Part shown: in pieces, positions 1 through 5,437 of the stretch
How the letters are laid out: every line of letters starts with the position of its first letter
Numbering within the stretch: the first letter of the stretch is position 1
Assembly: GCA_040757115.1 (NCBI GenBank)
Contig: JBFLYA010000239.1
Span: 1 to 5,712, forward strand
Length of the DNA stretch: 5,712 nt
From: a bacterium
Lineage (GTDB): Bacteria; UBA9089; CG2-30-40-21; SBAY01
Direction of reading: 5' to 3'
Position numbers and translations under genes: made by a program
The notes under the pieces: generated by a model
What the model was told of the DNA's origin: nothing
The model's database searches: none
The model's input: the letters and a program-made list of their open reading frames with translations, nothing else

Positions 1-22
1 GAAATTGATTGTGGAAAACAAC

Positions 23-52
23 AAATTTCCATAAATTTCTATTAATTTCAAT
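23..52. repeat. 10-bp degenerate tandem repeat, 3 units
   Basis: Three consecutive 10-bp units (AAATTTCCAT, AAATTTCTAT, TAATTTCAAT) lie upstream of the first gene and run into a T-rich tract. The 10-bp period is close to one DNA helical turn, so the A/T tracts would be in phase and could bend the DNA. That effect is inferred. No open reading frame covers the stretch. Confidence 0.6.
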
Positions 53-64
53 TTTTTTAATAAT

Positions 65-95
65 ATCTCCCTATCTCCTTAATCTCCACATCTCC
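65..95. repeat. ATCTCC short tandem repeat, 4 copies
   Basis: ATCTCC occurs at 65-70, 73-78, 82-87 and 90-95, spaced 8, 9 and 8 bp apart, giving a pyrimidine-rich + strand. On the reverse strand it reads as a GGAGAT ladder. It does not act as a ribosome binding site for the downstream gene, because it is on the wrong strand and too far from the start. Its function is unknown. Confidence 0.6.
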
Positions 96-104
96 TTTTG
101 TTAC

Positions 105-121
105 ACCACCTGAACGCTTAC
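105..121. repeat. Right-end-like sequence of the 2488-2734 element
   Basis: ACCACCTGAACGCTTAC matches the right end of the miniature element at 2718-2734 at 16 of 17 positions. The outer 11 bp, TGAACGCTTAC, differ from the element terminus TGAACGGTTAC by one base. It sits 9 bp before the purine-rich ribosome binding site of the gene at 139. It is either the right boundary of a related element whose left part lies before the window, or a solo relic. Confidence 0.5.
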
Positions 122-138
122 TAAAAATCAGAGGGAAA

Positions 139-2433
139 ATGAATAAATCACTTATAATCCTTACAATAATATTACTTTCCAGTTTCACCTGGGCTAAAGA
201 GATTGAGCAACAAAGAACGAGTTTCGACCCATTAGAAGTAATGGCTAATGAATACCTGAAACAGGCATTTACCCTGTATAACCAATTAGAGTTTGAAAAG
301 GCAATTACCTTGTATAAAAAGGCATTAGATTTGACCCCTGATTCTGCTCAAGTCTGGTATTGGTTGGGCAGAAGCTATTATCGGACAGGGCAAATGCCTC
401 AATTTTTCTCTGCCTGGGAGAGGTTTTTAAAATTAAGCAAAGAAGATACCTCAGAAATAAAACGAAAAATGCTGGTCTATTCAGAAAACCATATTAAGTC
501 AAATACATACAGATATTTTGACACCATTAAAGGAAAAGATGATTTTGCTATTTATAATCCTGCGGGAATAGTTATAGATTCCGAAGATAATTTTTACATC
601 AGTAGTTTTGGGAATAATGCTATTTTAAAATTTTCACCAATTGGGAAACCTTTATTACGATTTGGGCAAAAGGGTAAAGATAAAGGAAAACTAAATAAAC
701 CTGCGGGTATTGTCCTTGATAAAGAAGGGAATGTTTATGTAACTGATTTTGGTAACCATCGCATTCAAAAATTTACCTCTGAAGGCAAATTTTTAATGGC
801 GTTTGGCAAAGAGGGTAAAAAATCAGGTGAATTTATCAACCCGGAAGGGATAGCATTAGATAGTAAAGAATATATTTATGTTGTGGATAACGGTAATCAC
901 AGGATTCAAATCTTTTCCCCGGAAGGTAAATTCGTAGGGAAAATTGATGAAATGCTTTTATCTCCGATAGGAGTAGTTGTGGATAAAAGGGAAAGAATTT
1001 GGGTAATTGAGCGAGGCGGTAACTATCTTAAACAATTTGCTACCTCAGGCAGACTTCAAAACAATTTTCCATTTCCACAAAAAGGATTAATTCCCAAAGG
1101 TATAACTTATGCCCTGGATGGAAAACTATATCTTAGTTTTTCACAAGGCAGTATCTTTAAATTTGATATAGAAAATCAAAAGTGGGAAAGGTTAAATCTA
1201 CCTTCAAAATTTCCTGCTCCTTTGACACTGGCTGTCAACAAATATGGATTGCTGTATGTTATTGGTTTTGAGAATAATTCCATATTGGTGTTTATTCCAG
1301 AGGAGGCTAAAGATACACAATTTGATGTTCTGGTCAATCGTATAGATACAAGTGGTTATCCAACAATTATAATGCCCGTGATGGTGACATCTAAACACAA
1401 AACCCCGATTTTAGGTTTAACTTCTAATAATTTTAAAGTAGAAGAAAACGGTCGACAGATGCAACCTATAGCACTGGGCACACCGGTATATGAAAATGAG
1501 TATTTAGTTACAACCTTTATCATTGATACATCTAAAAAGATGGTCAAATATCGAAATGATGTCCAAGAACTATTAAACAAATTTGTTTCGGAGATTAAAG
1601 GAGGAATTCAAGGGGTATCAATAATTGGTTTTTCTGAAAAGGCAGAATATATCCAGTCAATTACTCGAAATAAAACAGCCTTGCGAGATAAAATTGAGAG
1701 ATTAATGCCGGGTAAAAATTCCAGAGACAAAGATGCTATCTTTTCGGCAATTAAACTTGGAGTTAGCGAGATGAATTATTTAATCTGTAAAAAGGCGATT
1801 TGTTTAATTACCTATGGTGATGAGGTGGAAGAAGAAACATTATTTAGAGAATGCAGTGATTATGCTAAAAATAATCATATTCCGATATTTGTGGTTGATT
1901 TTCGGGGACAGGGCGAAACTAAATCACTAAAAAATTTAGCCGCAAATTATTTCCTGGCATATCAATCCCAAAAGGCTCAAAAACTCTACGAAACCATTTC
2001 AACTCAAATCAAAAACCAAAATATCTACCTTATTTCTTACCAGACACCTCAAGAGCAATGGGCTTTAAAATGGGTAGATGTTAGTGTTTCTGCCGGGCAT
2101 AGGCATCTTTGTGCTTATGATAAAATAAATTATGTTGTGCCACCAGGTAAAGGAATAGATAAGGAGATTATTGCAAAAATAGAGAAACGTATCCAGAAGA
2201 AAAGAAAAGAACTATATGAAGAAAAGATGAAGAAATTGGAAGAAAAGAAGAAAGGGAAAGCGGGTCATAAAGCTGAAGGAGGACATGGCGAAAAGGGCAA
2301 ACCAGAAGGATTTCCTCCCCCAAAAACATGGGAAGAAGATATTCAACCAGATATTGGTAGCCCTGTTCGTGAAAAATTTGTTCCAGATGAAAAAACTAAG
2401 CCTGGCGGTGGAGGACATGGAGGAGGACATTGA
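139..2433 (+). CDS. Exported TPR - NHL beta-propeller - VWA-like protein
   Basis: 764 residues; cellular role unknown. The start is ATG 139, preceded by GAGGG at 131-135. Residues 1-19 look like a Sec signal peptide (hydrophobic 5-17, likely cut after Ala19), with no lipobox Cys. Residues 36-103 resemble two TPR helical pairs. Residues 138-386 hold about six NHL-type blades, the clearest at 187-216 and 234-263 (NPEGIALD, GNHRIQIF), enough for a closed propeller. Residues 395-636 resemble the VWFA-related domains known from Acidobacteria: a lead-in (GLTSNNFKVEENG), then a Rossmann-like VWA fold. Its MIDAS is degenerate: Asp463-Thr-Ser465-Lys-Lys467 replaces DxSxS, and Tyr559 sits where TDG has Asp. 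Residues 672-705 are a charged, possibly coiled-coil helix, followed by a Gly/His/Pro tail ending GGGGHGGGH. TPR, NHL and VWA modules all suggest protein binding; a periplasmic or surface scaffold is inferred. Domain calls are by eye. Confidence 0.85.
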   Translation: MNKSLIILTIILLSSFTWAKEIEQQRTSFDPLEVMANEYLKQAFTLYNQLEFEKAITLYKKALDLTPDSAQVWYWLGRSYYRTGQMPQFFSAWERFLKLSKEDTSEIKRKMLVYSENHIKSNTYRYFDTIKGKDDFAIYNPAGIVIDSEDNFYISSFGNNAILKFSPIGKPLLRFGQKGKDKGKLNKPAGIVLDKEGNVYVTDFGNHRIQKFTSEGKFLMAFGKEGKKSGEFINPEGIALDSKEYIYVVDNGNHRIQIFSPEGKFVGKIDEMLLSPIGVVVDKRERIWVIERGGNYLKQFATSGRLQNNFPFPQKGLIPKGITYALDGKLYLSFSQGSIFKFDIENQKWERLNLPSKFPAPLTLAVNKYGLLYVIGFENNSILVFIPEEAKDTQFDVLVNRIDTSGYPTIIMPVMVTSKHKTPILGLTSNNFKVEENGRQMQPIALGTPVYENEYLVTTFIIDTSKKMVKYRNDVQELLNKFVSEIKGGIQGVSIIGFSEKAEYIQSITRNKTALRDKIERLMPGKNSRDKDAIFSAIKLGVSEMNYLICKKAICLITYGDEVEEETLFRECSDYAKNNHIPIFVVDFRGQGETKSLKNLAANYFLAYQSQKAQKLYETISTQIKNQNIYLISYQTPQEQWALKWVDVSVSAGHRHLCAYDKINYVVPPGKGIDKEIIAKIEKRIQKKRKELYEEKMKKLEEKKKGKAGHKAEGGHGEKGKPEGFPPPKTWEEDIQPDIGSPVREKFVPDEKTKPGGGGHGGGH

Positions 2434-2445
2434 GATAGGATAAGG

Positions 2446-2462
2446 GTAACTGTTCAGCCACT
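2446..2462. repeat. Left-end-like sequence related to the 2488-2734 element
   Basis: GTAACTGTTCAGCCACT begins 13 bp after the stop codon of the first gene. Its first 11 bp differ from the element terminus GTAACCGTTCA by one base, and the similarity runs on, with one gap, through CAC and GAT. The same 17 bp recur at 3567-3583 with one mismatch. It looks like the left end of a related element whose remainder is absent or decayed. Confidence 0.5.
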
Positions 2463-2478
2463 GATTTCATCTGTGGCT
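2456..2478 (+). other. Short stem-loop after the first gene
   Basis: AGCCAC (2456-2461) and GTGGCT (2473-2478) form a perfect 6-bp stem around an 11-nt loop. No T-run follows, so it is not a convincing intrinsic terminator. It overlaps the element-like sequence at 2446-2462 and may be part of that relic. Confidence 0.4.
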
Positions 2479-2479
2479 A

Positions 2480-2487
2480 AATATGTG
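2480..2487. repeat. Left target-site duplication AATATGTG
   Basis: AATATGTG directly abuts the left terminal inverted repeat of the element and is repeated exactly at 2735-2742. The match runs one base further (G at 2488 and 2743), but that G is also the first base of the inverted repeat. An 8-bp duplication is therefore the simplest reading. Confidence 0.8.
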
Positions 2488-2734
2488 GTAACCGTTCACC
2501 GCACAGATACAGAGACGCAGAGAAAAACAGACCCCTAATCCCTCTCAAGAGGGGAAAATCAAAAATTAAATATTAAAATGCAAAATGACATATCAAATAT
2601 CAAAAATCTTGACTTCGTGTTTAATTTATTGCCTTACAAGTACTTTTGCATTTTACTTTGTCATTTTGCTTTTTACATTTTGATATTTGCATTAAACTCT
2701 GCGTCTCTGCGGAAATTACCACCTGAACGGTTAC
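2488..2734. mobile_element. 247-bp miniature inverted-repeat element (MITE), IS66-like ends
   Basis: The ends are perfect 11-bp inverted repeats: GTAACCGTTCA at 2488-2498 and TGAACGGTTAC at 2724-2734. An exact 8-bp direct repeat flanks them. Three further inverted pairs nest inside in register: 2510-2522 with 2697-2709 (13 of 13), 2568-2580 with 2676-2688 (12 of 13), and 2580-2590 with 2659-2669 (11 of 11). The whole element can therefore fold as one long imperfect hairpin. There is no significant ORF, so any movement would need a transposase in trans. Known IS66-family elements have ends starting GTAA and make 8-bp duplications, which fits; the family assignment is inferred from those two traits alone. 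It lies between the first gene and pcm, ending 32 bp before the preferred pcm start. Confidence 0.8.
2540..2553 (+). other. Small GC hairpin inside the miniature element
   Basis: CCCTC (2540-2544) pairs with GAGGG (2549-2553) across a TCAA tetraloop. It belongs to a stretch of about 45 bp in the left arm (2523-2567) with no counterpart in the right arm, so it would project as a side hairpin from the element's main stem. A-rich sequence follows, not T, so it is not a terminator on the + strand. Confidence 0.45.
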
Positions 2735-2742
2735 AATATGTG
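2735..2742. repeat. Right target-site duplication AATATGTG
   Basis: This is an exact copy of 2480-2487, directly outside the right terminal inverted repeat. Removing 2488-2742 restores one continuous intergenic sequence, CTAAATATGTGGATTAA, leading into the pcm ribosome binding site. Confidence 0.8.
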
Positions 2743-2753
2743 GATTAAATTTT

Positions 2754-2763
2754 GGAGGGGGAG
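2754..2763 (+). promoter_or_regulatory. Strong Shine-Dalgarno that sets the pcm start
   Basis: GGAGGGGGAG lies 3 nt before TTG at 2767. Its GGAGG core (2754-2758) is 8 nt from that codon. The TTG at 2752 overlaps this purine run and cannot use it, so 2767 is the better start. Confidence 0.7.
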
Positions 2764-2766
2764 ACA

Positions 2767-3426
2767 TTGAATCAACGATATGATATTGAAAGAAGAAAAA
2801 TGGTTGATGAACAAATTATAAGACGGGGAATTGTGGATGAAAGAGTGGTAGAGGCAATGCTGAAAATTCCACGAGAGCTATTTGTCGAAGAGGCACTTCG
2901 GGAAAAGGCTTACGGTGACCATCCCCTTCCAATTGGTTGTGGACAGACTATCTCACAGCCATTTATGGTTGCTTTAATGAGTCAATCTTTACAACTATCT
3001 GGCTCAGAAAAGGTTCTGGAAATAGGAACAGGTTCAGGCTATCAAGCGGCTGTTTTAGCTGAATTAGCTCAAAAGGTTTATACTGTTGAACGGGTAAAAA
3101 TCTTATACGAAAAGGCACAAAGGATACTTTTAACCGAATTAAAATATAAAAACATTGCAACCATTTTAGCCGATGGTAGTTTGGGATTACCTAATCTTGC
3201 TCCTTTTGACCGTATTATTGTGACGGCAGCCGCACCGGATATCCCGAAACCATTAATCGACCAACTGACAGATAACGGTATTCTGGTCATCCCAAAAGGA
3301 GATAAATTCTTTCAATCATTGATAATCGTAACAAAGAAAAATGGTGAATTATTCACTAAAGATATAGGTGGGTGTGTCTTTGTGCCATTAATTGGCAGGT
3401 ATGGCTGGAAAAATAATGGGGCGTAA
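2767..3426 (+). CDS. pcm: Protein-L-isoaspartate O-methyltransferase
   Basis: 219 residues, cytosolic. It uses S-adenosylmethionine to methylate L-isoaspartyl (and D-aspartyl) residues in damaged proteins, starting their conversion back to aspartate. Family hallmarks: RKMVDEQI near the N-terminus, PLPIGCGQTISQPFMVALM (about 53-71), the SAM-binding motif VLEIGTGSGYQAAVLAEL (83-100), an acidic residue after the second strand (YTVE, Glu108), DRIIVTAAAP (148-157) and the C-terminal VPLIGRYGW (206-214). The length is normal for bacterial PCMT. TTG 2767 is chosen for its Shine-Dalgarno; the alternatives are TTG 2752 (five residues longer) and ATG 2800 (MVDEQ, shorter). The miniature element lies just upstream and could alter its transcription or mRNA folding. 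tRNA-Pro follows 53 bp after the stop. Function is confident; the exact start is moderately so. Confidence 0.96.
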   Translation: MNQRYDIERRKMVDEQIIRRGIVDERVVEAMLKIPRELFVEEALREKAYGDHPLPIGCGQTISQPFMVALMSQSLQLSGSEKVLEIGTGSGYQAAVLAELAQKVYTVERVKILYEKAQRILLTELKYKNIATILADGSLGLPNLAPFDRIIVTAAAPDIPKPLIDQLTDNGILVIPKGDKFFQSLIIVTKKNGELFTKDIGGCVFVPLIGRYGWKNNGA

Positions 3427-3479: not shown

Positions 3480-3557
3480 CGGGGCATAGCTCAGCTTGGT
3501 TAGAGCGCCTGGTTCGGGACCAGGAGGTCGGAGGTTCAAATCCTCTTGCCCCGACCA
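3480..3557 (+). tRNA. tRNA-Pro, anticodon CGG
   Basis: A complete 78-nt cloverleaf with encoded CCA. The acceptor stem CGGGGCA (3480-3486) pairs with TGCCCCG (3547-3553), followed by discriminator A3554 and CCA 3555-3557; C1-G72 is typical of bacterial tRNA-Pro. The D stem is GCTC/GAGC. The anticodon stem CCTGG/CCAGG encloses loop TTCGGGA, giving anticodon CGG (3515-3517) with G37, which reads CCG proline codons. The T stem GGAGG/CCTCT (one G-T pair) encloses TTCAAAT. Every stem pairs, so it should be functional. It lies between pcm and argS on the same strand; co-transcription is not shown. Confidence 0.97.
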
Positions 3558-3566
3558 AAAATTGGC

Positions 3567-3583
3567 GTCACTGTTCAGCCACT
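3567..3583. repeat. Second copy of the left-end-like element sequence
   Basis: GTCACTGTTCAGCCACT matches 2446-2462 at 16 of 17 positions and resembles the terminus of the 2488-2734 element. It starts 10 bp after the tRNA. No matching right end is evident; CAGGTGG at 3694-3700 resembles the inner part of an inverted right end, but only over 7 bp. Confidence 0.45.
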
Positions 3584-3790: not shown

Positions 3791-5437
3791 ATGACCATAA
3801 ATAATGAGATAGTAGATATAATTGATAAGGCGATTGGGCGAGCAATGACAAATGGCAGAATCCCTGGAGTCGAGTTGGAATCTATTCAACTTGAGTCTCC
3901 TAAAAGACCTGAATATGGTCAATTAGCAACTAATATTGCCTTTGTCCTCGCTAAAAAGGCTAATCTTTCTCCGTATCCGATAGCTCAAACAATCGTTGAA
4001 TTTATGGAAAAACCAGAGGAGTTAATTTCGCAGGTAGAAATTGCTGGAGGTGGATTTATTAATTTCTGGATTGCAAAAGATAGATTATATAAGGTTTTGA
4101 AAGAGATTGAAGATAAAAATGAACGCTACGGAATGTCAGACATTGGTCAGGGGAAAAAGGTTTTAATTGACTTTGTTAGTGCAAATCCAACCGGGCCACT
4201 TCATATTGGTCATGGTCGGGGCGCCGCTTATGGAGATATTCTGGGTAATATTTTATCTTTTTGCGGCTATGAAGTAACTAAAGAATATTATATCAATGAT
4301 GTTGGCACACAAATGGAAACACTGGGAAAATCTTTAAAAGCACGATACTTACAACTATCAGGACAACCTGCACAACTCCCTGAAAATGGCTATCAGGGTC
4401 AATATTTAATAGAAATAGCCAGCACACTTTATCATCAAGAAAAAGATACTTATCAAAACAAAGATGTTGATTTTTTTACACAATTTGCCAAAGATGAGAT
4501 ATTGAAGGATATTAAAAAGACATTAATCGATTTTGGCGTCGAATATGATAATTGGTTTTCAGAGGGTAGGTTATATGAGTCTAATGAAGTAGAAGATGTG
4601 CTTAATACTCTACGAAAACTTGGGTTTGCTTACGAAACTGATGGAGCACTCTGGCTAAAGACGACCTCTTTTGGTGATGAAAAAGACCGTGTTTTAATTC
4701 GGCAAGATGGTAAACCAACATATTTTGCAGGTGATATTGCATATCATAAGAATAAATACACACGCGGATATGACCTGTTAATTGATGCCTGGGGCACTGA
4801 CCATCATGGTTATGTCAAACGGCTACAATCAGCAATGGAGGCTCTAAGTTATCCTGATGTCGTTGTTTTACTTTATCAATTGGTTAGTTTAGTCAAGGAT
4901 AAACAACCTGTTTCTATGTCAACCAGGTCAGGTGAATTCATTACCTTATCGGAGTTAATCAAAGAGGTTGGTAAGGATGTAGCGCGATTCTTTTTTATTA
5001 TGCGTAAGGCAAATAGCCATCTCGAATTTGACTTAAATCTGGCAAAACAATCCTCGAATGAAAATCCTGTTTATTACATTCAATATGTTCACGCCCGCAC
5101 CTGTAGTATTCTGGCTAAGGCAAAAAAAGAAGGCTTTCAAGAACCTTTCCAGGCAGACTTGAATTTATTAAAACTTTATGAAGAGAGGGCAATACTTTTC
5201 AAATTAGCCTCTTTGCCTGTGGAAATAATTAGTTGTGCAAAATTTTACGAGCCACAAAGTTTAACAACATATCTTATTGAACTGGCGGGGTTATTTCATA
5301 ATTATTATCAGCATCATCGAGTTATCTCGGCAAATAGAGACCTTTCAACTGCTCGTCTTGTCTTAGTTAATGCCATCCGTATAGTTATTCGTAATACTCT
5401 GCTTTTATTAGGCTTACAAGCCCCAGAGCGGATGTAA
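3791..5437 (+). CDS. argS: Arginyl-tRNA synthetase (class I)
   Basis: 548 residues, cytosolic; charges tRNA-Arg with arginine using ATP. The length is normal for bacterial ArgRS. The N-terminal tRNA-recognition domain spans about 3-88 (YGQLATNIAFVLAK at 42-55). The catalytic core carries SANPTGPLHIGHGRGAAYGD (130-149) with the class I HIGH motif at 138-141, then DAWGTDHHGYVKRL (332-345). The KMSKS equivalent is SMSTR (375-379), a relaxed form common in ArgRS. The DALR anticodon-binding domain fills about 430-548 and ends in the usual APERM. ATG 3791 is preceded by AGGA (3785-3788), 2 nt away, and GAAGGA (3774-3779), 11 nt away; both spacings are imperfect, so initiation may be modest. The protein's start aligns with family expectations, and no in-frame upstream start looks better. 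A repeat-built hairpin follows 7 bp after the stop. Confidence 0.97.
   Translation: MTINNEIVDIIDKAIGRAMTNGRIPGVELESIQLESPKRPEYGQLATNIAFVLAKKANLSPYPIAQTIVEFMEKPEELISQVEIAGGGFINFWIAKDRLYKVLKEIEDKNERYGMSDIGQGKKVLIDFVSANPTGPLHIGHGRGAAYGDILGNILSFCGYEVTKEYYINDVGTQMETLGKSLKARYLQLSGQPAQLPENGYQGQYLIEIASTLYHQEKDTYQNKDVDFFTQFAKDEILKDIKKTLIDFGVEYDNWFSEGRLYESNEVEDVLNTLRKLGFAYETDGALWLKTTSFGDEKDRVLIRQDGKPTYFAGDIAYHKNKYTRGYDLLIDAWGTDHHGYVKRLQSAMEALSYPDVVVLLYQLVSLVKDKQPVSMSTRSGEFITLSELIKEVGKDVARFFFIMRKANSHLEFDLNLAKQSSNENPVYYIQYVHARTCSILAKAKKEGFQEPFQADLNLLKLYEERAILFKLASLPVEIISCAKFYEPQSLTTYLIELAGLFHNYYQHHRVISANRDLSTARLVLVNAIRIVIRNTLLLLGLQAPERM

Follow-up and report, generated by a model that had tools for sequence, protein, structure and literature searches.

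ISDge4, a member of the ISBst12 group of the IS66 family, has a single open reading frame and the end GTAACTGCTCAGCA, and duplicates 8 bp of its target on transposition (PMC12898284); two IS66 elements of Paracoccus also make 8-bp duplications (PMC3281130). The literature we searched yielded no IS66 MITE of the type analyzed here and no work on GxxExxY cassettes, nor did it yield mobile insertion cassettes (MICs) with IS66 ends and GxxExxY or 23S-IVP passenger genes. The 247-bp element discussed below is of a kind (MITE) that is already known, and we found no description of its abundant family in that literature.

The window, the whole 5,712-bp stretch of DNA that was analyzed, is the entire contig G000:C239. 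The original prediction was that positions 2480–2742 contain a non-coding element of 247 bp (2488–2734) with perfect 11-bp inverted termini and an exact duplication on either side, and all of these features are indeed present there. The element lies between the gene for a TPR/NHL/VWA-domain protein and pcm, about 18 bp upstream of the likely pcm ribosome-binding site. The features of the region are as follows:

139–2433, gene for a TPR/NHL/VWA-domain protein
2447–2478, plus strand, remnant of an older element with a GTAACTGTTCAGCCAC end, recognized by comparison with the sister genome G001, where the remnant is longer
2480–2487, unstranded, left copy of the 8-bp target duplication AATATGTG, from the sequence; single copy in the sister's empty site
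2488–2498, plus strand, left terminal inverted repeat GTAACCGTTCA, 11 bp, a motif that recurs at the 138 ends of 69 units
2488–2560, plus strand, left outer part (element bases 1–73), 94.5% identical to the C54 unit, of a type derived from a GxxExxY cassette
2510–2522, plus strand, left subterminal inverted repeat CAGAGACGCAGAG (repeat search pair I4, 100% complementary)
2555–2699, plus strand, core (element bases 68–212), 92–97% identical to sequences on C289, C104, C155, C63 and C21, a separate intergenic repeat without these ends
2697–2709, minus strand, right subterminal inverted repeat CTCTGCGTCTCTG (repeat search pair I4)
2697–2734, plus strand, right outer part (element bases 210–247), 97% identical; matches C54-type units and the C26 GxxExxY unit
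2724–2734, minus strand, right terminal inverted repeat TGAACGGTTAC, 11 bp, from the sequence and the repeat search
2735–2742, unstranded, right copy of AATATGTG, from the sequence; single copy in the sister's empty site
near 2767, start of pcm
about 3481–3556, tRNA gene, read from the sequence
3791–5437, argS

The ends GTAACCGTTCA and TGAACGGTTAC are perfect inverted repeats over 11 bp, the subterminal pair spans 13 bp on each side, and the AATATGTG duplication is exact. Among random positions in sampled contigs of the genome, which is AT-rich, the fraction with an exact 8-mer repeat at the element's spacing is 5.3e-4, a figure that applies before perfect inverted ends are demanded exactly at the repeat's inner edges. 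The open reading frame listing shows no frame of at least 60 amino acids inside the element, and promoter-like and terminator-like matches within it are not above chance. It is thus short, non-coding and bounded by terminal inverted repeats, as MITEs are; it has no coding capacity for the transposase that an autonomous IS66 element encodes, and it is free of the passenger gene that defines a MIC. It is an ordinary kind of thing, and we claim it only as a non-autonomous user of IS66-type ends. Our overall reading, to which we give a probability of roughly 0.85, is that it is a non-autonomous MITE with ISBst12-group IS66 ends that was mobilized in trans, inserted after this species split from its sister, and is mosaic in origin.

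The timing is given by the sister species G001 of the same genus, which has an empty site: a single AATATGTG and no element, in a region that reads ...CATCTGTGGCTAAATATGTGGATTAAATTTTGG..., with flanks 97–98% identical to those in this genome. It had been proposed that excision would leave one clean intergenic sequence and that the insertion is recent. Removal of the element and one AATATGTG does give a junction identical to the sister's at the same place, and the insertion is recent, having occurred after separation from the sister species. In two species of a neighboring genus the upstream gene runs directly into the start of pcm and the element is absent, so its absence is ancestral; together with the empty site in G001 this means that it was gained in the present lineage. 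The element would have entered at AATATGTG, duplicating those 8 bp. In the two outgroup species the stop of the upstream gene and the start of pcm overlap; in the genus studied here the two genes have come to be separated by inserted elements and the remnants of such elements (window 2430–2767). The sister carries a further element of about 175 bp at this locus (L184), absent from the window, just upstream of the old remnant that matches window position 2447; it has different inverted ends (CTGTGATTCAGACA and TGTCTGAATCACAG) and is flanked by the near-repeats GGATAAGGGT and GAATAAGGGT.

Other family members show the same kind of history. The site of a second unit, 242 bp long, on C45 (duplication GATTTTAG) is likewise empty in G001, two other units (duplications CGTTACTT and AAATACTT) are common to both sister species, and just past the tRNA gene G001 carries a 244-bp unit flanked by an 8-bp duplication of its own, at a place where all that this genome shows is a decayed end (GTCACTGTTCAGCCAC, window 3566–3583). 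Since units are both shared and polymorphic between the two species, the family has moved both before and after their split. The precise empty sites reject conserved intergenic DNA as the identity of the element. They also bear on the idea that recombination or slippage, and not transposition, spread these units as intergenic repeats of the hairpin type; the predicted fold of the element is one long hairpin (z = -8.3) and the interiors of the family are mosaic, both of which such a history might produce, but it is contradicted by the exact 8-bp duplications at the element's edges and by precise empty sites in which the duplicated 8 bp occur just once, and we consider it very improbable.

The element belongs to a large family. 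The motif GTAACYGTTCA occurs 652 times in the 4.32-Mb genome, versus 13 times for its reversed control, and inverted pairs of it 202–263 bp long number 46, versus none in the control. Complete units were counted in a sample of about 1.77 Mb from this genome and 0.4 Mb from the sister. In the 1.77 Mb of contigs, 41 of 221 end pairs (ends no more than 8 kb apart) are flanked by exact 8-bp repeats; exact flank repeats of 3, 4, 5, 6 and 7 bp were found in 5, 3, 2, 2 and 3 cases, respectively, and none is longer than 8 bp. When two mismatches per end are allowed and all loci taken from this genome are included, 69 units have exact 8-bp duplications, so that dispersed copies and a duplication of fixed length, with its peak at 8 bp, are found here as in other MITEs. 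Other copies with 8-bp direct repeats had been anticipated, and hundreds of same-end copies exist. The 138 ends of the 69 units are mostly of the form GTAA[C/G][C/T][G/A]TTCA[G/C], and their duplications are 75% AT (versus 63% in the sampled contigs). The units fall into several groups whose interiors are unrelated between groups; no full-length, near-identical copy of the 247 bp itself was found. Strong enrichment of GTAACCGTTCA extends to the sister (559 versus 3), to G008 (485 versus 1) and to several more genomes of the phylum, with hardly any outside it. A large, recently active miniature family with IS66 ends is thereby documented in a little-known bacterial lineage, together with a before/after insertion pair. 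The contig itself starts partway through a different miniature element that shares this end family, one of a 237-bp group (window 1–121, with the right end TGAACGCTTAC at 111–121), so the assembly broke within a miniature repeat, and the family may help explain why the assembly is fragmented.

Which transposase moves these units? GTAA-initial ends and 8-bp duplications, the features by which IS66 had been named, are those of the ISBst12-group element ISDge4 (PMC12898284) and recur in this family. The only full-length IS66-type transposase unit found in the genome, C277:3061–4623 (1563 bp, single open reading frame), has identical 11-bp GTAACCGTTCA ends, two in-frame stops and no target duplication. 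The suggestion that an IS66 transposase elsewhere in the genome may mobilize the element is supported by the existence of this same-ended unit, with the caveat that the unit's gene is broken. In G004, a genome of the same order that matches record JASEHA010000036.1 ("bacterium isolate Yes70-11"), a 1505-bp unit whose two ends are both GTAACCGTTCA encodes an intact 468-amino acid IS66 transposase (NF033517 match, 270 bits). Pieces with such ends are present in G002 and in G007, and a Spartobacteria MAG has a shortened unit. A contig search with the intact relative gave 8 loci, and one with the broken IS66 gene as query gave no match; the IS66-like matches L272, L281 and L288 in the phylum have no GTAACCGTTCA ends within two mismatches. 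IS66 thus has its transposase between the same ends both here (broken) and in G004 (intact), and there is good support for the view that an ISBst12-group transposase, acting in trans on the GTAACCGTTCA ends, moved the 247-bp element.

A transposase of another family, whose ends and 8-bp duplication resemble those of IS66 by chance, might instead have done so. Many such units are found in the sister even though a relative of the C277 gene is missing there, and no 8-bp duplication surrounds the IS66 units with these ends (C277, G004 or the shortened Spartobacteria unit). Such a mobilizer seems unlikely to us nonetheless: in several genomes the one transposase observed inside such ends is IS66, no unit above 859 bp that combines these ends with an exact 8-bp duplication turned up in the 1.77 Mb, and the published ISBst12-group ends and duplication length agree with those found here. 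Neither this genome nor the sister yielded an intact IS66 transposase with these ends, and because the sister still carries many units without a relative of the C277 gene, we infer that the active enzyme has been lost, was present only for a while, or sits in gaps of the assembly.

The interior of the element has another source. Similarity between the miniature elements and IS66 ends after about 11–13 bp, and beyond the ends the parts of the 247 bp match GxxExxY-cassette units and a separate repeat; an origin by internal deletion of IS66 is rejected on these grounds, and the element is a mosaic. The C54-type units that resemble its outer parts in turn match the 472-bp C26 unit, which has a broken GxxExxY gene, with the gene's middle part missing, while the repeat that matches bases 68–212 sits between genes elsewhere without these ends. 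These similarities show that the element was assembled with its outer parts from a GxxExxY-cassette-derived unit and its core from another repeat. Short shared sequences lie at the junctions (AAAATC at the left one and CTC at the right), which suggests that the parts may have been joined at microhomology.

In this genome 65 matches to the GxxExxY family (TIGR04256/PF13366, PD-(D/E)XK superfamily) were counted, and many of these are fragments. The C-terminal part of GxxExxY is carried by three 292-bp units, and four further units with these ends carry a gene:

C16:24650–25145 (L095:4650–5145), GxxExxY unit, exact 8-bp duplication TTATACAC
C7:14892–15402 (L079:14892–15402), GxxExxY unit with one in-frame stop, exact 8-bp duplication GATAGGTG
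C144 (L169:1395–2098), GxxExxY unit, exact 8-bp duplication AATTTTTT
C49 (L229:15465–15948), 23S-IVP (PF05635) unit, 484 bp, ends GTAACTATTCA, exact 8-bp duplication AATAATTC

These four units combine IS-type ends and a passenger gene with the lack of a transposase, and by their anatomy they are MICs; because they lie inside units with the same ends and 8-bp duplications, the GxxExxY and 23S-IVP genes seem, in this genome, to travel as cassettes. Elsewhere in the genome (L156, L159, L160, L161, L162 and L172) GxxExxY genes have entirely different flanks, several of which are inverted repeats, for example of the CGACCTGT...ACAGGTCG or CCGCAAAGAGCGCAAAGG types; these differently flanked genes hint at further cassette families. 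The presence of GxxExxY genes inside units with these ends and exact duplications, and the fact that the two genomes richest in the ends are also richest in GxxExxY matches (65 and 55), might point to the GxxExxY protein and not the IS66 transposase as the mover of the family. We find this scarcely credible, the least probable of the explanations considered: the same gene family lies between those unrelated inverted flanks, one unit carries the unrelated 23S-IVP gene instead, and IS66 already accounts for the GTAA ends and 8-bp duplication. In addition, these ends are missing from the GxxExxY genes of most other genomes in the phylum, so the link between the two is specific to this lineage.

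We think it rather probable that IS66-type ends are a general carrier in this lineage, which would have made MICs of GxxExxY and 23S-IVP genes, and that many of the high-copy miniature elements would be worn-down, recombined remains of such cassettes. If true, this would help explain the scattered multiple copies of both gene families here. The gene-carrying units are a concrete, testable route for the spread of these genes and are a more interesting by-product than the MITE itself.

Among the known systems, the IS982-derived MITE of Cardinium (PMC9769881) is similar in being short, non-coding, mostly intergenic and of high copy number with inverted ends, but the interiors here are leftovers of gene cassettes and other repeats and not of a parent IS, and this genome yielded no intact parent IS. 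The ISBst12 group, as represented by ISDge4 (PMC12898284), is like the present family in its ends of the form GTAACYRYTCA and its 8-bp target duplication, and single-ORF IS66 units with exact GTAACCGTTCA ends exist in this genome and its relatives; it differs in that the 247-bp element has no transposase gene and matches IS66 at its ends only. Finally, unlike the MICs (mentioned in PMC3281130) the 247-bp element itself carries no gene, whereas the GxxExxY and 23S-IVP units, with their IS-type ends, passenger gene and lack of a transposase, resemble them in plan.
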